From positions 1 to 61,969 of the forward strand of contig JAKFYD010000016.1 of assembly GCA_021731025.1 (NCBI GenBank): a stretch of 61,969 bases of DNA. The letters run 5' to 3'. Origin of the DNA: Pseudobdellovibrionaceae bacterium (lineage in GTDB: Bacteria > Bdellovibrionota > Bdellovibrionia > Bdellovibrionales > Bdellovibrionaceae). The notes under the pieces are model-generated. The model was not told the DNA's origin, made no database searches, and saw nothing but the letters and a program-made list of their open reading frames with translations. Positions 8,235-53,088 of this stretch are shown here, piece by piece. Made by a program: the position numbers and the translations under genes. Each line of letters opens with the position of its first letter. The first letter of the stretch is position 1.

Positions 8235-10925
8235 TTATGATCGCCAAGGTTTCTTGAGTACAGTCAAACGCTCTGAATTATCGAGTACCTTTCCGCACGT
8301 TTCCCATGGAACAGACTCCGGCTTTCGATAACGTAATTCAAATGGATGTTTCGTTGGCAGATCGCCAATGATCCTTTTGGCTTCTTCAATTTCACCCTCT
8401 GCAATCGCTATCCAAGCGTCTTCAAGAACATCAGGAATTTGTCCAAAAAGATCAAAGATATTTTCGAGCCGACCAGAAAGCAAATCATGAACTCTGTCTT
8501 CAACGGAATCAGCATAGCGCATGTTATAGATTGATACAAGATCACGAACTTGCCCAATTCTCTGAATACGACCTTTTCGCTGTTCAAGACGAGTGGGATT
8601 CCATGGTAAATCGAGATTGATAAGAGTGCCAAGCTTCTGAAGGTTCAATCCCTCACTTGCGGCATCTGTGCCGAGTAATAGACGAAGTTCACCTTTGGCC
8701 ACCATCGTCTTAAGTTCTTCTCGAGACATCTTTTTGAAGGAGCCATCCTTTATTAATCCTGATTTTGCTCCCCCTGCATAAATACCAATTAATTCCTGAG
8801 GGTATTCTGCTCTAAGCTTTTCTGCTAGCCACCAAATTGAATCAAAATATTGAGAGAAGATAATGCAGCCTTGTTTGAGCCAACCACGCTCACCAAGGCA
8901 TTTCAAAACAACAGCTAGCTTTGGATCGTTGTCACGATTGGCCTCAAGTTCCTCAATGAATTGCTTAAGAAGCCTTTTCTCCTCAATCGTCAAATCTTTA
9001 AGATCAGGTGTGTCTTGAACTTGAGTTTCATCGTCTTCACCCTCTAATTGTGAAATGCCCGGCCATTCCTTCAACATTTTGGTTGCGGTAATTCGACCAG
9101 CTTCAATCGAGCTTCCTACGCGTCTAAGCAACAGTGTTTTTAGAAACCCTGCACCCTTGGCCCGCTTTGCAAGCTTAGAGCAGAACTCTTCTGCAGTATG
9201 ATAAGCTGCCGCTAAATAAGCTGGTAACTGGATAGGATCCTGTTCGCCAAGAAGTTCAACTTTGACTGGTTTTAGCATTGGCTCGTTTGTATCCGGATCA
9301 AGTTGCTGTTCCAGATAATCTCGAGTCCTGCGAATTACATGGCGAATAATAGGGTTATGATCGCGTAAGAAATTATCTTCGAGATTTCTTATTTGCGCTT
9401 TTCTTGGGTCAGGAAGTCTTTCCCAATAATCGCCAGGAGCAATAGCTTCGTTATCTTTCATCTTTAAGGCGCGACGAAGATTCGTAAAAACAATGTCTTC
9501 ATTGGCCGGTGGCAAAGGATTTCTGATCCATCCCCATAAATCTAAGTCGTTGGTTGGAGCTGGTGTACGTCCCATGATCAAGCTCAGAGCCTCAGCTGGT
9601 TTTCGCCAGTTGCTCCAGTCATTGCCAAGTACAAATTCAGTTCCCATTCCTAAAATAGCAATGAGATCCCAGACTTCAATAGGATACATTTGAACTGGCG
9701 TGGCCGTACCTAACAAAACACTCTTTGCATTTGGCGCCATTGCCATCAAAAATTTCATTAGATTATTTGGATCAGGTTTTTCACCTTCGCGATTATCACC
9801 TAAGTTTCGTCGTCGACAACGGTGAGCTTCATCAACGATTAAACATTCAAGCTTCATCGTCTTAATATATTCGATGATTGGCGAACCACTGGTGATTAGC
9901 CCCTGAGAAATTATCCCAATTCGTCGTGGGCAATCTCGAATACTTTCAGGACCAGCACTTGGATAATCAATACCATTCTCATCTACCCAATGATTGGAAT
10001 CCCAGACAGCACACGGCACGTCCAAAAGAGTCTTTAGCTCCCCTTGCCACTGCCAAAGCAATGTCTTAGGCGCAACAACCAACACTGGTCCGCCGCCGTA
10101 CAAGGCCATCAGCTGAGCGCTCATTCCTAGTTGAACAGTCTTTCCAAGGCCAACTGAATCAGCCAATACAAGTCTGGCGCCATATGGTCCTTTATGAAGA
10201 TCGAACGCAGTTTTAATAAAAAATTTCTGATGCGCCCCAAGGCCAGTTTCTTTTCGATAGACTGGGGATTCGACAATCGGAGCTGCTGGCTCTGGGTCTT
10301 TTCGCCAGTCCTCAATACTGCCGACTACTTCTCTTTTGGAAAGACGTTCAATATCTTCAACTACGAATTTACTGAGTGGAATTGCCAAAGGATGGTTCCA
10401 GAACATGTCGAACTCTTCTTGAACCCATTTAATGGCATCATCCGAATCATCTTCCCAAACAATTTCATAATTCAACTTCCATGCGGCCAGTGTTTCGTTC
10501 GTGCTTCCTATAAAAGAAGTCTTTTTCCCGCTCTTGTTTTCGATAACGCCAGCTTTGCCGTGAACCAAACCAAATTTTTCAGTTGGAAGAACTCGCACTT
10601 CAAGTTTCCCTGACTTTAGCAAATGAAACAGCTTAGTGAATCGGTCAGAACTGCCGTCAGTAAGTTTCTCAGGTTCAGACGCGCACCATTCTTTACGTAA
10701 TGCTTGTTCTGCGGCTTTCGCAATTTCAGCATCTCTTGGCACGATGTCCGAATTGCAAACCATTCTAATTTTGCCAGTGACTTGTTCTAATCTTTCACCG
10801 GCAATTTCCAAAATTGAAGAGCTAAAGTAACCTGCTACTCGGTCGTATCTAGCCGCATCAACTAGGCGCTCACCAAGAAAGTCTTTGTAGATATTTTGTC
10901 TTCGTGATGAGAAACGATTAATCAT
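8235..10925 (-). CDS. PLD-domain plus SNF2-type helicase, defence cassette
   Basis: This 896-residue protein joins a phospholipase-D-like N-terminal domain (HGK at 122-124 and GSTNET at 140-145) to a SNF2/RapA helicase. The ATPase motifs are GLGKT (Walker A, 259-263), VDEAH (364-368) and GTATP. The second RecA fold contains a late RIQRIGQ motif VI. Such enzymes translocate on duplex DNA; the PLD part may cut or bind nucleic acid, though only one HxK motif is clear. It is the last gene of the minus-strand cassette, 8 bases after the DUF1156 gene. It resembles DISARM DrmD in class but with a fused PLD domain. Confidence 0.88.
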   Translation of the reverse strand: MINRFSSRRQNIYKDFLGERLVDAARYDRVAGYFSSSILEIAGERLEQVTGKIRMVCNSDIVPRDAEIAKAAEQALRKEWCASEPEKLTDGSSDRFTKLFHLLKSGKLEVRVLPTEKFGLVHGKAGVIENKSGKKTSFIGSTNETLAAWKLNYEIVWEDDSDDAIKWVQEEFDMFWNHPLAIPLSKFVVEDIERLSKREVVGSIEDWRKDPEPAAPIVESPVYRKETGLGAHQKFFIKTAFDLHKGPYGARLVLADSVGLGKTVQLGMSAQLMALYGGGPVLVVAPKTLLWQWQGELKTLLDVPCAVWDSNHWVDENGIDYPSAGPESIRDCPRRIGIISQGLITSGSPIIEYIKTMKLECLIVDEAHRCRRRNLGDNREGEKPDPNNLMKFLMAMAPNAKSVLLGTATPVQMYPIEVWDLIAILGMGTEFVLGNDWSNWRKPAEALSLIMGRTPAPTNDLDLWGWIRNPLPPANEDIVFTNLRRALKMKDNEAIAPGDYWERLPDPRKAQIRNLEDNFLRDHNPIIRHVIRRTRDYLEQQLDPDTNEPMLKPVKVELLGEQDPIQLPAYLAAAYHTAEEFCSKLAKRAKGAGFLKTLLLRRVGSSIEAGRITATKMLKEWPGISQLEGEDDETQVQDTPDLKDLTIEEKRLLKQFIEELEANRDNDPKLAVVLKCLGERGWLKQGCIIFSQYFDSIWWLAEKLRAEYPQELIGIYAGGAKSGLIKDGSFKKMSREELKTMVAKGELRLLLGTDAASEGLNLQKLGTLINLDLPWNPTRLEQRKGRIQRIGQVRDLVSIYNMRYADSVEDRVHDLLSGRLENIFDLFGQIPDVLEDAWIAIAEGEIEEAKRIIGDLPTKHPFELRYRKPESVPWETCGKVLDNSERLTVLKKPWRS

Positions 10926-10933
10926 GTTCGACC

Positions 10934-13825
10934 CTAAGCATGATCATTTTCCAATGCTCCGGCGAGCAGTTTTAATACTTTAGAGTCCCGACTCCAATGT
11001 GCCATTTGTCCGGTGGTATCCGAAATAAAGTTACAAATTTGAACCAGCACTCGACGCTCATTCCAATAGTTTTTGAATTCAGTTTTTAACCAATTTTTGC
11101 CAACCTGAATATCATCAGTAGAAATAGCCTGATGCCCAGCAAAAAGGATATTTCTAACCCCGGAGGCTCCAAATCCTTCGCCATCCAGCAACTTTGTACC
11201 AAATTCGAATGCAGTTCTTAATCTAGCGTGGTTTGCCTTTTCCGAAAAAAGCAATGGCTTGTACTCACGAACTCCAAATCCACGGGCGAGCTCTTGATAA
11301 ACACCAGCACGATTTTCGCCATGACTCTCGACCTCCAGACCCTTTAGATACAACTTTTCTTCTGGACGCAAAGCCTTCCAGGTCTGAGTATCAAAACCCT
11401 TTGGAACAAGAAAATCACATGCAACTTTAACCGCATTATCAATAATAAGTTCGATCGGAGACCTGTCACTTGAGATTCGAACTTTTTTCAATTCAGAATG
11501 TATATCAATGTCTTCGATTGATTTGTATTGAGTCAATACCCTAAGGGCCGCAGCATAAGCAGCAAGTTGAAAGTCTGCATCTCCAAAATTAGGAGAATTC
11601 TGGTCTTCTAACTTTAACATTTCTTCCAATTGAGACTTAACTTCAGCCTCAACCCGAGGAAAAAGCTCATCAAGAAAAGCAACTTCGGTTGACATTTGTT
11701 TTCGAAGAATCAAAAGGACAGTACCCTGTACGTAATTACCTTCCTTCAATGCATTGCTAGTTTCAGTCCCAATACACCAGGCAGCGGTTACTCTCAGCCC
11801 CGATGCCCAAAGTATCAATGTCAGGTCCGCCCATACTGACGCATCCTGATGGGTAAACATTACGATTTGCGCACCATTCGATGTCATATTTTGGGCCAAA
11901 GACTTATAACATGCAACCATGCTTTCTTTGAAATCAAGCTGGGTACCTTTTACAGCTAATGCTTTTTTTGAGTCCACATACCAGGTCTTAAATTGAGTTC
12001 TAAATACCGGCTCATACCAAGCTAAAAAAAATTCAGCCAATTCATGGTAATTTACTGCATCAGCATATGGTGGATCAGTAATCCAAAAATCCTGCACTGA
12101 TTTAATTTCCCTAGCGTCTTTCGGTTCGACCACAAATTTTGAGTGTATTTCGTATGACTTCAAATCGAAAAACCAACCTGTGCCCACAGCTTGCAATGAC
12201 CGACAGCCATAATTAAAAAGTGTATTCAGCGCAAGATTAGTAAAAACAGACAATACCATCTCTTTACTAGGGGTTGGATCCCAAGCACTCAGTCTCGAGT
12301 TATAATTTATTGTTTTTCCAAGAGATAGAAAGCAGGCAATAGAAAGTCTCGGTTCTTTGATCTCCTCAGTTATTGTCTCAGACAAATATCCCAAAAGCAG
12401 AAGTTGCCTCGGATTAAAAAGATGGTGCCAGAAAGACCAACCTCTCTCTCTTGTCGGTTGATCAGTATTATAACCTGACTCAATTCGCCGTGAAGGAATA
12501 ATTCCATTTTGCTGCCATCTCTCAAACTGTTCCTTCAAAAGCTCAATCGTTTGCATCTCCTTTTGTAGGTCAGCTTCCGTAGGTGCCGAGTAGTGACGCT
12601 GACCTTGAACTCCACCATTTTCTGAATTTTGCTCGACCCATCGGATACAATAAAGGCGTTCTTGAAAAACATCGTCAGGCCTAGGTATGACGTCACTATT
12701 TTCCCACATACGAAGACCACTTATTGTTCCCTCAGAAGTGCGTCGATCACCACGTAATGTTGAAATAGAAGTACCATGTTCAGCTAGTGGATGTACTAGG
12801 CGTGAATTTTTTATTGTGGCAGAGGCTTTTGCCTTTGCCATCTCAGCATCACTTACACCGCTTCTTATTAAAATATCATATCGTTTGTTTAAATGATCTG
12901 GAATGAGTTCAGCTATGCACTTTGTTTTTTCACCAATAACCCAACTAGGAGCTAGTGGCACCATCCAGCCCGTTTCAGGACAACGAACTTCCGCACAATA
13001 CAAATAGGCATCCGCACGCCAGCCTTTTTCATTGTGCTCAATCCCTAATTGCTTAATTTTTCGATCTACAATATCGAAAACATTTTGTTGTGCTTTTTTA
13101 ATATCAGTCGCTAATTTTTCTCCACCGCCAACGAGATTCAAAGAGGCCCAAGAGAGTAGGGATGCAACAGGATTCAGATCAGAAGCATAGACTTCACAGC
13201 CTATTCTTGCAGCTTCAAAAGGAATACTTCCTCCCCCACAAAAACTATCTCCAATTCTAGGTGTATGCCCAAACTGATTTCTACCCAATTCCTGAATTAA
13301 ATCTGAAATTGAATGTGCATTAGTTTTTAGGTGAGAATTAATTTCAGCCCATTCTAATGCAGATGGTCCGTCAATTTGCTCCGGTCTATCGCAAAATGTG
13401 AGTTTTTTATCATACGGCAATCTTTGAAAAACCGCTTTTTGGAAACTACTTTTTTCTTGGTCGGATTTGCCTCTCTTAAGTTTTGGCTTCTGAGAATCTA
13501 GCTCGTCAAACCAAGTAGTCTTTTCTTCATCTGAAGCATTTTCAAAGAGCTCAGCTGATGTAAGATTCTTTGACCTTCTTCTAAGAACTCCTTCATTATC
13601 CATCGTAAGTATTTTCAGAAATATCTCACGATCTTTTTTTGGATCTACTGTAGCCGGGAAAAGTAGGCCTAAAATTGCTGCACGTACAAGGATAGTTGGT
13701 TTTCTGCCCCACCATCTACCCAATGGTGTGAGAGTTTGGGTAGGCCCAGCTTTTCTCTCTTTATAACTTTCAGCACTAATTTTAGAGACCGGAAATTGTG
13801 TCTCGATGAAGCTTTTGAACATCAT
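10934..13825 (-). CDS. DUF1156-type adenine-specific DNA methyltransferase
   Basis: The 963-residue protein starts with the DUF1156 signature (SYKERKAGPTQTLTPLGRWW and RKP) and contains a SAM-binding motif I (DSFCGGGSIPFEAA, about 193-206). Motif IV, DPPYADAVNY, lies near residue 584, the catalytic loop of amino-methyltransferases acting on adenine N6 (or cytosine N4). It is probably the self-marking enzyme of the defence cassette. The start overlaps the end of the DUF3780 gene by 44 bases, and the gene appears intact. Substrate sequence cannot be predicted. Confidence 0.88.
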   Translation of the reverse strand: MMFKSFIETQFPVSKISAESYKERKAGPTQTLTPLGRWWGRKPTILVRAAILGLLFPATVDPKKDREIFLKILTMDNEGVLRRRSKNLTSAELFENASDEEKTTWFDELDSQKPKLKRGKSDQEKSSFQKAVFQRLPYDKKLTFCDRPEQIDGPSALEWAEINSHLKTNAHSISDLIQELGRNQFGHTPRIGDSFCGGGSIPFEAARIGCEVYASDLNPVASLLSWASLNLVGGGEKLATDIKKAQQNVFDIVDRKIKQLGIEHNEKGWRADAYLYCAEVRCPETGWMVPLAPSWVIGEKTKCIAELIPDHLNKRYDILIRSGVSDAEMAKAKASATIKNSRLVHPLAEHGTSISTLRGDRRTSEGTISGLRMWENSDVIPRPDDVFQERLYCIRWVEQNSENGGVQGQRHYSAPTEADLQKEMQTIELLKEQFERWQQNGIIPSRRIESGYNTDQPTRERGWSFWHHLFNPRQLLLLGYLSETITEEIKEPRLSIACFLSLGKTINYNSRLSAWDPTPSKEMVLSVFTNLALNTLFNYGCRSLQAVGTGWFFDLKSYEIHSKFVVEPKDAREIKSVQDFWITDPPYADAVNYHELAEFFLAWYEPVFRTQFKTWYVDSKKALAVKGTQLDFKESMVACYKSLAQNMTSNGAQIVMFTHQDASVWADLTLILWASGLRVTAAWCIGTETSNALKEGNYVQGTVLLILRKQMSTEVAFLDELFPRVEAEVKSQLEEMLKLEDQNSPNFGDADFQLAAYAAALRVLTQYKSIEDIDIHSELKKVRISSDRSPIELIIDNAVKVACDFLVPKGFDTQTWKALRPEEKLYLKGLEVESHGENRAGVYQELARGFGVREYKPLLFSEKANHARLRTAFEFGTKLLDGEGFGASGVRNILFAGHQAISTDDIQVGKNWLKTEFKNYWNERRVLVQICNFISDTTGQMAHWSRDSKVLKLLAGALENDHA

Positions 13826-14492
13826 CTCCGTCCTCTCGTTTTTCTTCTAGGCTCTGACTTTCCGGATCTTTTTTTTTAATCGCGTCTGGCTTTTTTTCTT
13901 CAAGCTCAAACGGTGATTGAAATAAACCAATTAGGTCGTCCAGGTTAGTTTGCTTACGTTCTGAAACTTGATTTTCGGTCAGCGCATATCGCACGGCCTT
14001 TCGCCATCCTTTGCCTCGACCATTCAATGCATGGCCTGTAGCCGCATTTGTCATTGTATAGAGCCACCAGCGCTCCTCAGGCGTCAATCCTAGCCAATTC
14101 TGTATTGCAGTAGGTATAAGGTTAGGATCTGAGTCTTCGATAGCCCAGGCAAGCAGTACGAGCTCCTTACCAAAACTACGATTAAGAACATTTGGCCCAG
14201 CCTTCCAGCTTGCGGCCTTTGTCTTAAATTCTTTTCTTAGACGCTTGTTAAACTCCATGGCAACTTGTTCAGCGATTTTTTCCCACTTATCAATTGGCAG
14301 TACGACTCTGAGGCTACTGTTATCAGTGCCCATTGAATATTGAATGTTATCTTCTTTCCAAGCAGCATCGCCGGAAAGATGTTCGCTGATATAAACGTTG
14401 TCTTTTGTAGCCCGTGGAATTACCACTACAAAGTGATGTCCTGTTTCATCGGGACTAAATCCAAATCCGTAGATTTTCTTTTCTTTTTTCAT
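13782..14492 (-). CDS. DUF3780 defence-associated protein
   Basis: The 236-residue protein is identified by its place between DUF499 and DUF1156 genes and by family-like text (YGFGFSPDETGHHFVVVIPR, then EERWWLYTMTNAATGHA and GKGWRKAVRYALTEN). It has no catalytic motif I recognise; the last 50 residues are highly charged and probably disordered. Its ATG overlaps the DUF499 stop (ATGA). It may bridge the ATPase and the methyltransferase. Family assignment rests on memory of this recurrent neighbourhood. Confidence 0.75.
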   Translation of the reverse strand: MKKEKKIYGFGFSPDETGHHFVVVIPRATKDNVYISEHLSGDAAWKEDNIQYSMGTDNSSLRVVLPIDKWEKIAEQVAMEFNKRLRKEFKTKAASWKAGPNVLNRSFGKELVLLAWAIEDSDPNLIPTAIQNWLGLTPEERWWLYTMTNAATGHALNGRGKGWRKAVRYALTENQVSERKQTNLDDLIGLFQSPFELEEKKPDAIKKKDPESQSLEEKREDGDDVQKLHRDTISGL

Positions 14493-17400
14493 TTTTGTAC
14501 TACCTCCCCAGGAGCCAATGTCAGCCTAGCATCGGCAACCCAGTCTTGAAGATCTTGGCCTTTTGTGAAATGTATAGCCTGACAAGTAAGACTTGCCTCT
14601 GAATTTGGAAGCAATTCTTTTAATCCAAGAACAAGTTTTTCGGTCTCTTTGGGGCCTATGTTAAATTGTTGTCCTGAAGTCAGGTTTAACCAACAATTTC
14701 TAGAAGATCCATCTTGCCCACGCAGAAGAATTTCAACATCCACCAGTTGGCCACCATACTTGGACGTTCTTGCAAGCAACTCAAAAACATCTCGTGTAGC
14801 TTGCGCCTCCAAATTTCGCATCAGAGTTGCCGCCTTAATATTATCAATCTTTTGTTCGCCAAAAGATTCGGGATCAACAGCAATCTCTTGCTTCTCAGAA
14901 AAGGTCCCATTCTTCTCGGCAACTGCGATTACAAATCTCGTGCCTTTGGGAATGGGGAATGGATCATTGTAGGCAGCTCCACCATTCCGAGGATCGGAAC
15001 CATCCGTCGTATAACGGATACTTGCTGGTGGCGCCGATCTTAGTTCCATCCTGCCTTCATTGCCTTGCTGAAATGCTCGATACTTGAGTGTGATTTGATT
15101 CGTCCAAGTGTATTGGTCGCCAGTTTCATGCTCATTTTTGCTATCAATACATAGAAATGAAACTGACATTTCTTTTGTTTTGAAATTGTTAAAGTCTTCA
15201 ACTCTTTGAGACCCAGTGGTCGCAGGTTGACCAACTTCGAAATAGACTAGGTCTGCATGAACGGGCTGAATCTTCAAGGTCACTTCGCCAGTTTCATCGT
15301 TTCGGGCCTTTTGTTGAACGAAGACCTCAGTTCTAGGTTTAGGAAATGGAGGTTTTTCAATATATCCACTGCCATCATCACGCCAATGACCTTTTTCCAA
15401 TGAGTCTCGCTTCATTGCATCCAGCGCATCCATTCGATGCCATTGCCATGCAGGAGTTTGGGCAGCTCGTTGTACAACTTCGTTCCAAGGCATCTTTTTG
15501 ATAGTAAAAAGTCTTTGTTCGATCTTTTTCCTAAACGTTTCACTGCTAATATCTGCACTGAACTTCTGCTTCTCTTCAAGAGTCTTCTTGATTTGCTTTT
15601 CGCCTTCAAATTTATTGTCAGAGAAGCTCATCTGAAGATCTGCTGAGGAAAGACGATCTGCAGTTGGATAGAAAATAACTGTGAATGTTTCACGAATAGA
15701 ACTCAGGAACTGAAGTTCAAATTTATCTTGGTAAGTTATCGCTTGCTGCATGAGTGGGTCATCGTCGCGAACCTTTTCAGCCTGCAATTCTTCGATAGCC
15801 GTCTTAACAGCCTTAAGGTCTTTTGAGCGTTCTATAAGATTATCTAAATTTCCTCGCGAGCCCGTTAGAAAAAGCACACGATTTTTGAACGTTTGATCTC
15901 GATAGAACTTCTCAATGTCTGGATGAACCTGTGTTCCAGAGTGTGGTTCATAGATGACCATTGTAACTTTGTCTTGCGTGAGTTCAATCTCATCAAGTGC
16001 AGGTAATACCTTTACCACTTGATAGGCGTCTTTTACGGAAGGCGAGAACATTCCTTCAAGTCGCGTTCTAAGTTCCTTAATTGAGGACTCTCGATTGACG
16101 TTTTCTGCAATGGACTTAATCTTTGCGACAAGATTCTGAGTGTTTTTGAAGAAAAATTTTCCTTCACGATTTGTATGGAGGTACCAAGCTCGGGTAGATA
16201 AAACCTCGATGATGTTTTTGGGTATTCCAGAAATATCACGACCAGGAGCACATAGGTAAGAAACTGCCTCGGAGGTGTTCAAGCCAACTAATGAATTTGG
16301 GACATTTGCCAGTGAGGATACAAGAAGAAGTTTACATACATCTTGTGCATCACGCTTAGTTCCAAGATTTTGATCCATTAATTCTGCAACTGCTTTTCCA
16401 GCAGAAGCAATGTCATGGCTGATTGCATTGTCTAATGTTGGATTAATTGTCGAGATCTCAGCTAGAGTATCGCGATCATTTAAATCAATATCATGAGCGT
16501 GAATTAAGTAACTTGTGCTGGCGACCCCATCAACATCATTCCACATTCGCGCTACCACGACACGCATAAGACGAATTAGGCCGCGCGTCTGCTGGAAGCC
16601 AGGATTCTCTCTAAATCGAGCATAAAGATCACGAATTGCCGGATGAAAGGGATAGGATTTTTGAATCTGACTTGCAAATGCCTCTGGGGTTGCAGCAGTA
16701 ATATCCATCTGACGTGCATCGCGAATGGCCTTTGAATAGCCCTGCGCAACTTCTCCAATATCAGATTCTTCTGGGAGTTCTGAAAAAAGTCTTTTCCTAA
16801 GAATAAAATAGAGTTCGTCTGTGTTAAGTGCCACCGGCTCAAGTGGCAGGGCGTTTCTTCCGACCTCTGAATCAAGATCCCTGAGGGCCTTATTCAGAAT
16901 TTCGCTTCCGCCTTCGTAGGTAGCCTTTAAATCGCTAATGACAAGGCACACATTTGATAGCTCATCTTTGCCGACGGCTACAAATAAATTGGATAGGGCC
17001 GTCGCTGTCACAACTGAGAGGTCTGAATTACCAATGGCAATTGACTTTGAATTCTCTAAGTAAGGCGGTAGCTCATCAAGTAGGATCAATAGAGGCTCAC
17101 CCTTCAAGAGATTAACCCAAGCAGACTGACCTGGCGCCTTGAGGGGACTATAATATTCGTTAAAGAGTTCTTTTTTCCCAAGCTGAGATGCAATTGCTCC
17201 CCAAATTCCTAAGGGGGCATCGCTTTCACGTCCAGAAAAAGCCACGACGCGTGCTTTGCCAACTCCGGAGTGGTCAACAATTCCATCAAGTACTTTCGCA
17301 CGAATGCTAGGTTCTTGAGCGAGAAGTCCAAGCGCAATTAAATTATGCGTCTTACCGCCACCCATAGCTTGAGTAAGCTTAAAAATTCCCTGCTGAGAGT

Positions 17401-17590
17401 CACCCTTAAATCGTCGGAACGATTCTCGGAAAAGACTCTTCATGCCGCCAGTAATATAGTTCTCCTCAAAGAATTCTGGAGCCTTAATTTTTCCGGGCTG
17501 AAGAAGGTCTGAAAGATCGAGGACGATGTCTCGCTTAGACCGATCAAATACATTTTTACGTGGCTTACATGTTTGCTTTAGTGTCTTCAT
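14489..17590 (-). CDS. DUF499 AAA-type ATPase, defence cassette
   Basis: The 1033-residue protein has a P-loop GGGKTH (77-82) and Walker B LILLDE (168-173) within a DUF499-like ATPase fold. Middle regions are rich in helices and the C-terminus (about 830-900) carries a beta-domain with an SIRYTTDGSDPRNG segment like those of chitobiase-type beta-sandwich repeats. DUF499 ATPases recur beside DUF3780 and DUF1156 in predicted defence loci. The ATPase probably powers or gates recognition of invading DNA. The gene starts inside the end of the HTH gene (26-base overlap). Confidence 0.85.
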   Translation of the reverse strand: MKTLKQTCKPRKNVFDRSKRDIVLDLSDLLQPGKIKAPEFFEENYITGGMKSLFRESFRRFKGDSQQGIFKLTQAMGGGKTHNLIALGLLAQEPSIRAKVLDGIVDHSGVGKARVVAFSGRESDAPLGIWGAIASQLGKKELFNEYYSPLKAPGQSAWVNLLKGEPLLILLDELPPYLENSKSIAIGNSDLSVVTATALSNLFVAVGKDELSNVCLVISDLKATYEGGSEILNKALRDLDSEVGRNALPLEPVALNTDELYFILRKRLFSELPEESDIGEVAQGYSKAIRDARQMDITAATPEAFASQIQKSYPFHPAIRDLYARFRENPGFQQTRGLIRLMRVVVARMWNDVDGVASTSYLIHAHDIDLNDRDTLAEISTINPTLDNAISHDIASAGKAVAELMDQNLGTKRDAQDVCKLLLVSSLANVPNSLVGLNTSEAVSYLCAPGRDISGIPKNIIEVLSTRAWYLHTNREGKFFFKNTQNLVAKIKSIAENVNRESSIKELRTRLEGMFSPSVKDAYQVVKVLPALDEIELTQDKVTMVIYEPHSGTQVHPDIEKFYRDQTFKNRVLFLTGSRGNLDNLIERSKDLKAVKTAIEELQAEKVRDDDPLMQQAITYQDKFELQFLSSIRETFTVIFYPTADRLSSADLQMSFSDNKFEGEKQIKKTLEEKQKFSADISSETFRKKIEQRLFTIKKMPWNEVVQRAAQTPAWQWHRMDALDAMKRDSLEKGHWRDDGSGYIEKPPFPKPRTEVFVQQKARNDETGEVTLKIQPVHADLVYFEVGQPATTGSQRVEDFNNFKTKEMSVSFLCIDSKNEHETGDQYTWTNQITLKYRAFQQGNEGRMELRSAPPASIRYTTDGSDPRNGGAAYNDPFPIPKGTRFVIAVAEKNGTFSEKQEIAVDPESFGEQKIDNIKAATLMRNLEAQATRDVFELLARTSKYGGQLVDVEILLRGQDGSSRNCWLNLTSGQQFNIGPKETEKLVLGLKELLPNSEASLTCQAIHFTKGQDLQDWVADARLTLAPGEVVQK

Positions 17591-22032: not shown

Positions 22033-22386
22033 TTATTTTCCTTTCTTCGGCACGAGCCTTTGGATATTTATTTTGCAGATTCCTTCAAACATTTCTTTTT
22101 CATCAAAAAGATCGGCAATCGACATAGCTTTAACGGTTTCAGATTCAACTTCGCCAAGCAGTAGTTCTTTGAAGTTCATATTTAAAGCTTTAGCCAAGCG
22201 ACTCACTGACTTGAGATCGTGAGGGTTTGCATTTGATAGCCAGGACATCACAACACTTGGTTGCTTCACTCCCGCCATCACGGCAATTGCACGAACTGTA
22301 AGGTTACGTTCGTCCATTATTCGTTTTAAATTCTTAGCGAAAGGGAGCTCATCTGTCCCTTGACGCTTTTTTTTTATCTTCGCCAT
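22033..22386 (-). CDS. XRE-family transcriptional repressor
   Basis: Residues about 17-75 form an HTH_XRE domain (FAKNLKRIMDERNLTVRAIAVMAGVKQPSV and a later LAKALNM helix). The C-terminus is short and lacks a LexA-type peptidase, so control is probably by ligand or antagonist rather than self-cleavage. The gene sits next to the divergent gene at 22564 with palindromes between them, the arrangement of phage-like switches. It heads the five-gene exported-protein operon and probably controls it. Confidence 0.8.
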   Translation of the reverse strand: MAKIKKKRQGTDELPFAKNLKRIMDERNLTVRAIAVMAGVKQPSVVMSWLSNANPHDLKSVSRLAKALNMNFKELLLGEVESETVKAMSIADLFDEKEMFEGICKINIQRLVPKKGK

Positions 22387-22563: not shown

Positions 22564-22986
22564 ATGGAAAAGCCGAAACTGGTCCAAGGAGTCACACAAG
22601 AAAATAAAATCAACACAGATGCTAAAAAGATCGAGACATCAAAAGTTGAAACTAAAGTTCCTGCGAAGTCATCTAAGCCTGAATCGCACGGAATCACCCA
22701 GAGGGAAGCTGTTTTTGTTGAAGTTATGCGAGCGATCCGCGAAGAAAAAATTATCTTTACAGATGGTCAAGCCGTGAAGCCACTCTTGAATGAGACACAC
22801 ATTAAAAGAATCTGTGCTGCACTCGTCGCTAGCTTCCAAGCAAAGAAAGTTGCACTTAAGGATACCGAGGCCAATAAACAAAAACTTACGGATTCAAAGA
22901 TGATGGAACTGTATTGCTTGGGCTTGCTAAACAATTGGCTTCGACGCGACGCCCGTTTGAACGGAACTCTGAACAGAAAAAAGTAA
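22564..22986 (+). CDS. Unknown protein, TQxEA...WLRxDxRLNG family
   Basis: The ATG follows TTAAGGAGTG. The 140-residue protein has a Lys-rich flexible first 50 residues, then a helical domain beginning GITQREAVFVEVMRAI and ending NNWLRRDARLNG. The same two motifs occur in the minus-strand protein at 27509 (GLTQKEAIYQIICKVL and YWLRHDRRLNG), so both belong to one family I cannot name. The divergent position beside the repressor suggests an early element gene. Confidence 0.65.
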   Translation: MEKPKLVQGVTQENKINTDAKKIETSKVETKVPAKSSKPESHGITQREAVFVEVMRAIREEKIIFTDGQAVKPLLNETHIKRICAALVASFQAKKVALKDTEANKQKLTDSKMMELYCLGLLNNWLRRDARLNGTLNRKK

Positions 22987-23070
22987 GACTATAGTCCAGA
23001 ACGCAAGTGCCAGAACGGTGGGGCCCCTGCATATAGGTTCAAGCCGGGCGGGGCCCATTTTCTAGACCGT

Positions 23071-23079
23071 TGGTATAAT
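23071..23079 (+). promoter_or_regulatory. Extended -10 promoter, TGGTATAAT
   Basis: TGGTATAAT is a perfect extended -10 element (TGnTATAAT). No -35 consensus lies upstream, where GGGCCC is found. Transcription would begin near 23086, exactly at the first base pair of the long stem described next. Confidence 0.55.
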
Positions 23080-23085
23080 TAAATC

Positions 23086-23190
23086 GTTCGAGCCTCTGAG
23101 TAAATTCGAATCACAAATCTGGGTGTATCCATGTAACCTCGTAAATTCCTGGAACGGATTTGTAATGCGACTCAGAGGCTTGAATTCTTT
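23086..23190 (+). ncRNA. Candidate structured small RNA
   Basis: Bases 23087-23101 (TTCGAGCCTCTGAGT) pair completely with 23170-23184, allowing one G-U pair. After internal loops, ACAAATC (23113-23119) pairs with GATTTGT (23157-23163) around a 37-base loop. The closed ends and long rod shape recall 6S-type or antisense control RNAs, but it is shorter than 6S RNA, and no known family was identified. It lies in the 360-base gap from 22987 to 23346, which otherwise shows GC-rich repeats (GGGGCCC twice at 23020-23056), two small hairpins and no gene. Confidence 0.4.
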
Positions 23191-23346
23191 CAAAAACCCC
23201 TCCCACACAAAGTTCGCACCGAGTGTACCACTCCTGATTATAGGGATCCCTTTAAAAGCCGTGGCTAGCGGGCGCCACTTTTCCTGAAGCGACGAGTGAC
23301 CAACTCAAAACGATGCTGGTCAATGATCAGCTGAAAGGAATTTTCT

Positions 23347-23601
23347 ATGGGAACAAAGCCCGTATACCAATCGACCATTGAAGGCCGACATCCAACAATT
23401 GGGGATGATGATATTGAAAAAATGCTTCAGCTTCGCCGTGCAAAAGAATGGCTTATGAGGCGGGTCGACAAAGTCGAAGGCCAATTAAAACACATCGAGA
23501 ATGACATTATCACTCGGATTGAAGCTGGCGCAAAGTTGTCGGTAAATCGTCATGTCAGGATCGAGAAGGCACTTGTCATTAAGCTACCTGACTCAGAGTG
23601 A
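23347..23601 (+). CDS. Small helical protein, paralogue of the next gene
   Basis: The 84-residue product contains a coiled-coil-like helix (LRRAKEWLMRRVDKVEGQLKH) and an EAGAKLSVNRHVRIEKA end. A GAAAGG stretch precedes the ATG. The helix and EAG segment align with the next gene's product, so the two are tandem duplicates. The role is unknown; such coiled coils are common in small phage and element proteins. Confidence 0.6.
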   Translation: MGTKPVYQSTIEGRHPTIGDDDIEKMLQLRRAKEWLMRRVDKVEGQLKHIENDIITRIEAGAKLSVNRHVRIEKALVIKLPDSE

Positions 23602-23681: not shown

Positions 23682-24026
23682 ATGAGCACGGCAATTAAAA
23701 TTCAGAATCAAACTACTACCCAACCAGTGGTCACTGATAATGAAGTGAATCGTATCGTCAACTTGAGGGACAGCAGAGCTTTACTTAAGAAACGCCTAGA
23801 AGAGATTGAGGCAAACCTTGAGCAAGCGGAGGAAGGTGTGATTAAGTTAGTTGAAGCAGGCAGTATCGTAAAAACCACTTATCCCATTAGAGTGAAGACC
23901 TCTGAGCGACATTTCCCAAGCTGGAAGGATGCATTCATCAGTCAGCTTGGTCTCACAGCAGCAGCAAAGGTTTTGGCGCAAACTGAGCCGCGCATCTATA
24001 AAACGCTAATCATTTCTCAAGATTAA
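23682..24026 (+). CDS. Small helical protein, second paralogue
   Basis: ATG 23682 follows a strong AGGAGGT site; the frame is open further upstream but lacks such a site, so this start is chosen. The 114-residue product has LRDSRALLKKRLEEIEANLEQ then EEGVIKLVEAGSI, matching the upstream protein's helix and EAG segment, with a longer C-terminal part. A clear terminator follows. Function unknown. Confidence 0.65.
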   Translation: MSTAIKIQNQTTTQPVVTDNEVNRIVNLRDSRALLKKRLEEIEANLEQAEEGVIKLVEAGSIVKTTYPIRVKTSERHFPSWKDAFISQLGLTAAAKVLAQTEPRIYKTLIISQD

Positions 24027-24074: not shown

Positions 24075-24302
24075 AATTCCCTCTATGTGATTTCAGCAAT
24101 TTAGACCTCATCAATTTATTAAATGACCCAAATCAGAGTGCCCCGAAAGTATAACCTTGGTTTTCTTTTGCAAGCAGTGAAAGTGCCCACCAAGTAACGC
24201 ACAGGTGGGTCCTTAGTATGTGAGAAGTGATGGGAATGATGGCAATTTATGTTTTGAAATGCCAATCCTGACTTTAGCGATCAATAACTAAAGGAGCCAC
24301 TG

Positions 24303-25529
24303 ATGGAAAATAACAAACTAGAAATTAAATGCCCCAAGGAATGGGTGATTGAAAGATTGCGTGAACACGAACTCGACTACGACTATAAAACAGATGCCCT
24401 CAAGAAAGGCGACTTAATTGTTGAAGAAGCCTTGACCATTTCATTACTAAGACTTGATGCAAGACACTTGGACGTTGAAGAAATTCGCGCTTACATAAAA
24501 GATGCCCTGGCAGTATATCGACATGAGCGCTCACAGATTGAATTGAATTTACTCGTTGATCAATTGGCTTATGTATCCACCGACTCTGATCCTGTTGCTG
24601 AATGGGCCACTGCCGTTTGCGGAAAGTCATCGACTCTGGACACCATAGTCATGAAGCATTTCATTTGGCAGGTGAAACGAAAACTCGCAGGTCTTCCAGT
24701 CGAGAGGCACATGATGCCAGTGCTATGGGGGAAATCAGGTATTGGAAAATCCGTAGCAGTGTCACGGCTAATTGAACCTCTTTCGTCCGTTGCACTTCAA
24801 ACTGATATGGGAATATTTGGAGACCAATTTAGTCGTCGTGCTTTTTCCAGGAACTACCTAGTATTCTTTGACGAATTGCAAGGGAGTGAAAGCGCAAACA
24901 TTAACTCCATGAAACAAATTATTACTGCTCCAGTAATTGAGTGGCGGGCCATGCGCTCTGAGCGCGTGATGTCAGCCCCTCAAAATTCAACTTTTATTGG
25001 CTGCAGCAACGATCCTGTCCGTGATCGGATCAAAGATCCAACTTCGTCGCGCAGATTTTGGCAAATCAACTGCAGTGATCAAATCGACTGGGATGCGATC
25101 AACCGCATCGACTATCTTTCTTTATGGCGTTCCGTTGATGAAAAGGCTGCATCGCCAATCCTAAATCATTTGGAAGAGATAAAAATGATCCAGGAGTCAG
25201 AGATTCGAACAAAGGACTTAGTAGAACAATGGCTCGATGAAGCCTGCGAAGTAGTAACTTTCGACGAGTCATCACTCACGACTTCGGAACTCTATGAACC
25301 TTTCAAAGAATTCTGTATATGGCAGGGCCAAAAGTCATTCCCACAGTTCCAGAAGTTCGCTAGGGACATCAAACGGATACTGGAGGCGTCATTACATGGG
25401 CCGGTGGCCAAGAAAACCAACAGAGGGACTACCTGGTGTATTAAGATCAGGCTCCGCGAAGCAGTGTCAGTTAATGACAATATTGACGGCAGTGCAGAAC
25501 AGCTTGAGTTTGATTTTAAGGCCGCCTGA
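24303..25529 (+). CDS. VirE/SF3-like primase-helicase ATPase of a mobile element
   Basis: The 408-residue protein has Walker A GKSGIGKS (143-150), Walker B LVFFDE (186-191), a sensor-like FIGCSND and an arginine-finger-like TSSRRFWQI. These form the helicase half of VirE/DUF5906-type phage and satellite replication proteins. The N-terminal 90 residues are short and no archaeo-eukaryotic primase motif is visible, so it may work with a separate primase or be helicase only. It is preceded by AAAGGAG. This suggests that the 22-28 kb block can replicate on its own. Confidence 0.85.
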   Translation: MENNKLEIKCPKEWVIERLREHELDYDYKTDALKKGDLIVEEALTISLLRLDARHLDVEEIRAYIKDALAVYRHERSQIELNLLVDQLAYVSTDSDPVAEWATAVCGKSSTLDTIVMKHFIWQVKRKLAGLPVERHMMPVLWGKSGIGKSVAVSRLIEPLSSVALQTDMGIFGDQFSRRAFSRNYLVFFDELQGSESANINSMKQIITAPVIEWRAMRSERVMSAPQNSTFIGCSNDPVRDRIKDPTSSRRFWQINCSDQIDWDAINRIDYLSLWRSVDEKAASPILNHLEEIKMIQESEIRTKDLVEQWLDEACEVVTFDESSLTTSELYEPFKEFCIWQGQKSFPQFQKFARDIKRILEASLHGPVAKKTNRGTTWCIKIRLREAVSVNDNIDGSAEQLEFDFKAA

Positions 25530-25791
25530 TTTCGCCATTTCTGCAGAGTGAAGCAGTATCAAAGAAAATTGCATAAGGATTTCCTGAAGTTTGGTTTTGA
25601 AGTGTGACTACGCCGTTATTCAGCGAGAACTCAAAATGCTCACCTGAAGATTCTATTTTAAGTAACAGCATTGCCGTTTTCTTGGAGGGCCAAGCCTTAC
25701 ATGAATCTAGGGAATTGAACATAGTTTTGGACTGTTGCGCCTTGATGCTTGACCCGAAACTTAAATGAAACATCAGAATCCAAATCTTCAT
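25516..25791 (-). CDS. Possible small exported protein
   Basis: A 91-residue frame has a plausible signal peptide (residues 1-18, ending IKA) and a mature part with two cysteines. It converges with the helicase gene (14-base overlap) and overlaps nothing else real, because the recombinase starts at 25819. No strong ribosome-binding site is visible. The composition is credible but this may be chance. Confidence 0.4.
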   Translation of the reverse strand: MKIWILMFHLSFGSSIKAQQSKTMFNSLDSCKAWPSKKTAMLLLKIESSGEHFEFSLNNGVVTLQNQTSGNPYAIFFDTASLCRNGEIRRP

Positions 25792-25818
25792 ACGGAATAT
25801 TGGGTTTCAGGAGGACTA

Positions 25819-26763
25819 ATGAAGCTACTCCCCATCACACCAGAAGCTCGTTTGACAACCTTGGTCGCTACTTTTCTTTCTACCAAGGGCCCAGCAACAA
25901 GGGATGCGTATAGGCAAGATCTGAAGTGTTTCCAAAGCTATCTGATCACAAAATATGGCATCGACTCATTCCAAAATCTACTCCTAGTTTCGCCTGGTGA
26001 TTTGAATTTTGCAGTACTTGGATATCGCGAATATTTAGTTGAGCAAAAATTTAGTCCAGCGACAGTCAATAGGCGATTGGGTGCTGTGCGAAGTATTTTT
26101 AAGCTATCAAGACTTTTGGGCTTCACCTCATCAAGAATTGAAATATCAAATATAAAGTCAGAATCCTATCGAGACACAAAAGGCCCTGGTCTCCCTGCTT
26201 TCAAAAGAATGATGACCAAGGCGAGCGCACAGTCCTTGGTAAAAGCAGCAAGGGATCATCTGATTTTGCGTTTGTTATTTGACCTTGCACTTCGCGCAAC
26301 GGAACTTATTGAATTGGATTTATGCCATGTTCAGCTTGAGCAAAAACGTATTTCAATACACGGAAAAGGTCGAACTGAGCGAGAATTTCTTTCTTTGCCT
26401 GCGACCAGCATCCAAGCGCTAAAAAAATGGATTGAAATTCGAGGACTTGCTGATGGCCCTCTGTTTGTAAACTTGGTTCGCGCGAAAGATCAAAGAAAGC
26501 GACTAACTCGCACGGGTTTATTCAAACTAATTAGGTGGCTTGGTCAACAAGTTGATGTAAGGACTCGCCCCCACGGTGTCCGACATTTGAGTATCACCGA
26601 AGCATGTAAGGCAGCACAAAACAATGGCTTTGCCCTAGAGGAAGTTATGGATCATTCACGGCATAAATCCATCGCCACTTTGATGATTTATCGCGATCGT
26701 GAGCGTGACGTTCAAGGAGCAATTTCAACCCTAGTGGCGAACACCATACTCGGAGAAGAATAA
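25819..26763 (+). CDS. Tyrosine recombinase, XerC/D-like
   Basis: ATG 25819 follows AGGAGG, so the shorter 314-residue frame is chosen over an upstream start. The protein has the N-terminal SAM-like fold and the catalytic motifs ALRATELIEL (Arg), HGVRH (HxxR), a DHSRHKS box in place of the usual LGHSS, and Tyr in MIYRDR. It is smaller than the integrase at 2850 and closer to Xer or phage recombinases. It may process the right-hand element or its dimers. The 26765 gene starts one base after its stop. Confidence 0.88.
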   Translation: MKLLPITPEARLTTLVATFLSTKGPATRDAYRQDLKCFQSYLITKYGIDSFQNLLLVSPGDLNFAVLGYREYLVEQKFSPATVNRRLGAVRSIFKLSRLLGFTSSRIEISNIKSESYRDTKGPGLPAFKRMMTKASAQSLVKAARDHLILRLLFDLALRATELIELDLCHVQLEQKRISIHGKGRTEREFLSLPATSIQALKKWIEIRGLADGPLFVNLVRAKDQRKRLTRTGLFKLIRWLGQQVDVRTRPHGVRHLSITEACKAAQNNGFALEEVMDHSRHKSIATLMIYRDRERDVQGAISTLVANTILGEE

Positions 26764-26764
26764 T

Positions 26765-27067
26765 ATGAGACGATTTCTTACCTTCGAACTTTTAATCCAT
26801 TTATCAGACCGAGATTTAACTAAGGTTATTGAAGAAGTCGACCGGTACACAGTGATGAATGCCTACTGCGATACCGACAAAGAAACTTTAGATCGTGTAA
26901 AACGAGTCTTCACTGACTATGGGGTTGATAGCTTTGAAAAAGATGTTAAAAAAAGTTCGCCAATTTCGGAAGAGATCCAGTCTCAAGCAAAAGAAAAGCT
27001 AGCAGAGATTGCAGATCGATTTTTAACTGAGGGCGACTTCGACGACCTGAAATTGAGAAAGGCCTGA
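26765..27067 (+). CDS. Hypothetical protein following recombinase
   Basis: The 100-residue product is helical and acidic with no motif I recognise. It starts one base after the recombinase stop (TAATATG), so translation is probably coupled. Such small partners can be directionality or accessory factors, but no winged-helix signature is seen. Confidence 0.55.
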   Translation: MRRFLTFELLIHLSDRDLTKVIEEVDRYTVMNAYCDTDKETLDRVKRVFTDYGVDSFEKDVKKSSPISEEIQSQAKEKLAEIADRFLTEGDFDDLKLRKA

Positions 27068-52969: not shown

Positions 52970-53088
52970 GGCTTCTCTAAAAGCTTAAAGATCAAGGCCG
53001 CACGACTGAAGGCGACTGAGGCGTACGCATGTACGTCGCAGGGAGCCTGATGGAGGAGAACGCAGAGATTTAAGCTTTTAGAGAAGCC
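52970..53088. repeat. Large hairpin element between convergent genes
   Basis: Two perfect 20-base arms (52970-52989 and 53069-53088) enclose 79 bases with internal small dyads, including CGTAC-GCAT-GTACG (53022-53035). The element fits neatly between the stops of the J-domain gene and ettA. It resembles REP- or MITE-like intergenic elements that double as bidirectional terminators. No transposase is near. Confidence 0.6.

Follow-up and report, generated by a model that had tools for sequence, protein, structure and literature searches.

What is a predicted rod-like RNA fold, preceded at promoter distance by an exact extended -10 box, doing in the gene-free gap ahead of the replication genes of a mobile element? 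The gap lies in a contig of a Pseudobdellovibrionaceae bacterium, analysed over 61,969 nucleotides (the window), and sits inside a small integrative element with a gene set of HTH repressor, orf140, two paralogous small ORFs, VapE/P4-type primase-helicase and tyrosine integrase. The genes of the element, and the hairpin that follows orf140, are arranged as follows.

22033–22386, minus strand: HTH (Cro/C1-type) repressor, by family match
22564–22986, plus strand: orf140, the family-defining protein of the element, uncharacterised; by homologue searches
23020–23062, plus strand: terminator-like hairpin 3' of orf140 (GGGGCCC stem, 23-nt loop, ATTTTC tail), by sequence and fold
23347–23601, plus strand: orf84, a paralogue of orf142, by protein comparison
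23682–24026, plus strand: orf142, read from its ATG, with one orthologue in the relative G030
24303–25529, plus strand: VapE/P4-type primase-helicase, by family match
25765–26763, plus strand: tyrosine integrase, by family match

Neither a family nor a fold match was found for orf140, and the idea that it is an RNA chaperone was rejected. The small ORFs orf84 and orf142 are tandem paralogues, of which G030 has just one. Right behind the integrase is a small ORF (26765–27067) resembling the C-terminal domain of FliG, and G030 has an ORF of similar size at the matching spot after its integrase (L003:9983–10297). In the neighbourhood of the element the window holds a DUF1156 methylase/DUF3780/DUF499/PLD-helicase defence set (8235–17590), and the relatives (L010:9359–13859, L036:2541–6135 and L003:93–2267) adjoin E1-E2/JAB and patatin-like, OLD/Gabija-like and methylase genes; the family looks like a defence-carrying one.

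The gap itself contains the following elements.

23071–23079, plus strand: extended -10 promoter-like element TGGTATAAT, without a -35 partner, read directly
23086–23185, plus strand: the rod, a 16-pair outer stem with inner helices, predicted at -38.3 kcal/mol
23086–23101, plus strand: left arm of the outer stem, by inverted-repeat search and fold
23106–23119, plus strand: left arm of the inner stem, by inverted-repeat search
23157–23170, plus strand: right arm of the inner stem, by inverted-repeat search
23170–23185, plus strand: right arm of the outer stem, by inverted-repeat search and fold
23196–23292, plus strand: 97-bp noncoding block, 77% identical in G030 and aligned without gaps in G305
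23261–23282, plus strand: weak terminator-like hairpin (GTGGC..GCCAC followed by TTTT) within the 97-bp block, by scan

Direct reading confirms the coordinates and geometry proposed in the initial annotation, namely an extended -10, a start at the first pair and a rod in a gene-free gap; the 13 bases that it counted separate 23074, where TATAAT begins, from 23087. The last base of TATAAT is 23079, and the usual spacing of 6–7 nt puts the predicted +1 at 23086–23087, on the first pair of the stem, with six bases between the final T of the TGGTATAAT box and the 16-pair stem. The box contains an exact TGNTATAAT, a motif with two occurrences in the window where 1.6 would be expected, which is chance level. 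A scan for -35/-10 pairs gave no -35 hexamer for the box, and the promoter scan gave no other promoter-like site on the plus strand of the gap. The less likely part is the spacing between box and rod, which we estimate from the TGNTATAAT rate at about 1e-4 per rod and strand. What is unusual is thus the position of TGNTATAAT before the rod, and not its presence alone.

The 15-bp stem and second inner stem described initially are also there. The outer arms (23087–23101 and 23170–23184, 15 nt each) are 93% complementary, the odd position being a G-U, and an additional G-U pair (23086/23185) brings the outer stem to 16 pairs with two G-U and the rod to 100 nt. The inner arms are 86% complementary; the inner helix is interrupted, and in the minimum RNA fold its register is slightly slipped with respect to the inverted-repeat arms. 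Of 2000 dinucleotide shuffles at the fixed position, not one reached the minimum free energy of -38.3 kcal/mol (z -5.5). The minus strand comes close, at -35.0 kcal/mol (z -5.2); with two strands that fold about as well as each other, the fold gives no clue to the strand. A fairer test leaves free the choice of the best 104-nt window in the 283-nt gap, and here 4 of 400 shuffled gaps attain -38.3 kcal/mol, so that the strength of the rod is only moderate. A 15-nt arm pair of like quality occurred in one of 300 shuffled 360-nt gaps; about 0.5 such arms are expected by chance per window, and the host genome has 21 against about 7 expected per 800 kb. A chance origin is probably to be discounted, yet the rod is not extreme. 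With the downstream leader included the fold is retained, with pair probabilities of 78–91%. The rod fold is a prediction from a single sequence.

Searched with orf140, the set of 369 phylum genomes yielded relatives in four genomes besides the host's. In the closest, G030 (59–70% protein identity), the terminator-like hairpin behind orf140 is present too, followed after about 15 nt by the block that matches 23196–23292 at 77%; the promoter and rod are absent, and the region is about 125 bp shorter than in the window. The two sequences do not tell gain in the element of the window from loss in G030. The more distant relatives G106 and G225 have no rod at the site; the contig of G305 ends too early for the site to be read, so the rod comparison comprises G030, G106 and G225. 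The initial annotation held that absence of the dyad from close relatives would count against it: absent it is from all three, but these are not close relatives. At the equivalent positions of other VapE loci there is no comparable rod.

The rod is single copy in its own genome, by DNA comparison and by structure model. The one-sequence structure model gave no credible match in the 369 genomes of the phylum, a search with strict filters that could miss weak relatives; a 22-bit match in G245 (E 0.34) was rejected as chance, as it overlaps a reading frame and folds no better than shuffles. DNA comparison with phage and plasmid records and an exact 20-base probe of viral contigs gave no match to the rod. 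The Rfam search proposed initially returned nothing credible at the rod, only chance microRNA-precursor matches on the minus strand at gathering and permissive thresholds.

The simplest reading that makes use of the promoter geometry, and the most likely one, is that the rod makes up the initial ~100 nt of a leader RNA for the replication genes, as a structured 5' end peculiar to this copy; we hold it tentatively. An exact extended -10 with its predicted start on the first stem pair speaks for it. As orf140 is closed by the terminator-like hairpin 23020–23062, transcription of the genes that follow has to begin 3' of that hairpin. No T-rich terminator follows the rod immediately; the first possible terminator for a transcript starting at 23086 is the hairpin 23261–23282, inside the block conserved in G030. 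Against this reading, chance alone would give about 1.6 exact extended -10 boxes per window, and the minus strand folds almost equally well. Moreover, G030 has an equal gene set without rod and promoter, so the operon does not generally need them.

From these features we infer promoter activity, read-through and processing. RNA polymerase would start at 23086 from the extended -10 and transcribe the rod; the transcript would then enter the 97-nt conserved block and, unless stopped at the weak hairpin 23261–23282, reach orf84, orf142 and vapE. Because the rod is predicted to fold alone, in a duplex that would hide the 5' end, it probably sets the stability and processing of the leader (by protecting the 5' end or through RNase III cleavage) and leaves the conserved block to fold apart; regulation in trans is less likely. 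The rod is a real sequence feature, with a putative and probably modest function. If transcribed, it would be an example of a mobile element gaining a promoter and a structured leader before its replication genes.

The main rival of the leader reading, possible but less probable, takes the rod for a solitary palindromic DNA insert (REPIN or MITE type) or the remnant of one, lodged between terminator and conserved block with no RNA role of its own. The rod would then fold because such elements are palindromes, and the extra ~125 bp relative to G030 would be explained. The rod has the inverted-repeat ends around a short non-autonomous unit, the host is rich in rods of like size (more than 12 in 862 kb, with arms of at least 20 bp and a total of about 80–125 nt), and its genome has 8 matches to Y1_Tnp, the superfamily of REP-associated transposases. 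However, the dispersed host rods have longer arms, the arms of this rod match no dispersed host family (the best further match has E 0.4, and the structure model gives none), and the multiple dispersed copies typical of REPINs and MITEs are lacking. No clear target duplication is seen at the rod, where the flanks are too diverged from G030 to read one, and an insert leaves a promoter at exact spacing unexplained. Elsewhere in the window, a 119-nt rod with perfect 20-bp arms (52970–53088) has 14 further near full-length copies at 82–93% identity, a REPIN/MITE-like family, and the very end of the contig (61831–61969) is a 68-bp perfect inverted repeat with a 3-nt loop, probably an assembly artefact.

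The initial annotation, sound in its geometry, went further in suggesting a copy-control or 6S-like RNA, and neither function found support. It is unlikely that the rod is a trans-acting sRNA, processed to ~100 nt, that exerts antisense control of the element's replication genes in the manner of plasmid copy-control RNAs or the P4 CI RNA. Its position between the repressor side and the primase-helicase would suit such a role, and the UAACCUC of its apical loop could pair with GAGGUUA in the orf142 ribosome-binding site, but a 7-base match is likely enough by chance. No pairing with any start region of the element stands out: the duplexes of the loop with the leaders of orf84 (the 23347 leader, proposed earlier as a partner and unremarkable in energy) and orf142, at -18.2 and -19.0, are only about 1 SD stronger than the average 60-nt window of the sequence (-14.3). 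Near the rod there is no repeated target like seqA/seqC, inverted repeats being at about chance level besides the rod, and a copy-control RNA would be conserved with its replicon, whereas the rod is absent in all three relatives compared. Quite unlikely, too, is the bolder idea that one copy of a defence-carrying integrative element gained a promoter-rod cassette, giving a new orphan sRNA that feeds into the leader block 23196–23292 and controls the VapE replication genes as a lineage-specific RNA immunity or copy control. Still less probable is that the dyad acts as DNA, either bound by a protein or serving, when single-stranded, as a hairpin origin or initiation site; the near-equal folding of the two strands and the replication genes nearby would fit, but relatives that share the VapE and integrase lack the dyad, no iterons were found around it, and the promoter spacing becomes coincidental. 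The reading as a 6S-like RNA, an open-promoter mimic, is suggested by the rod shape with inner bulges only, and its probability is negligible: 6S (RF00013) is excluded by the lack of a covariance-model match at the rod, and the host's own 6S RNA lies elsewhere, at the only matching locus (G000:C22:22962–23139, 178 nt, 62.3 bits).

A by-product of the comparison, the conserved noncoding blocks beside the rod, is more useful than the rod and offers better targets. These blocks are kept between elements whose proteins are 59–70% identical, and the rod is the one part not kept. The 97-bp block has counterparts at L003:6361–6457 and L035:8032–8128; in G305 it stands before a different gene, a homologue of orf140. 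It is likely a leader or regulatory region of the downstream genes, possibly a conserved leader RNA of the element family. A coding role was rejected: a single frame stays almost open across three genomes, but third codon positions show no excess of mismatches once the third genome is added. Matching CCCGAAAGTA sites stand upstream of orf140 and vapE (22500 and 24142 in the window, L003:5783 and 6948), the motif occurs once in 800 kb of host DNA, and it is likely an element-specific operator or RNA motif; the end of the 97-bp block carries a variant (CCTGAAG, CCCGAAG). The vapE leader (24137–24222; L003:6943–7026) is conserved as well, with overlapping, mutually exclusive helices CTTGG/CCAAG and CCCACC/GGTGGG. 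The second helix reads CCTACC/GGTAGG in G030, a paired change, and the leader could be a switch.

Among known systems, 6S RNA (RF00013) is, like the rod, a long rod-like hairpin, of which the rod has about half the length. REPINs and MITEs (REPINs are described in PMC3116915) resemble it as intergenic palindromic rods of about 100 nt, in keeping with a host that has many rods and Y1 transposases; the rod differs in its single copy, arms unlike those of host families, no clear target duplication and a promoter ahead. The CI RNA of phage P4 arises by processing of an untranslated leader ahead of the replication genes; its pairing partners are seqA and seqC (PMC4825925). In contrast to it, the rod has no complementary seqA/seqC-like targets that we could find and is not kept in relatives. 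What it shares with the P4 CI RNA and leader (cf. IsrK of Gifsy-1; PMC4825925) is a noncoding structured RNA, here predicted from sequence, placed upstream of P4-type replication genes in an integrative element, near an immunity region.
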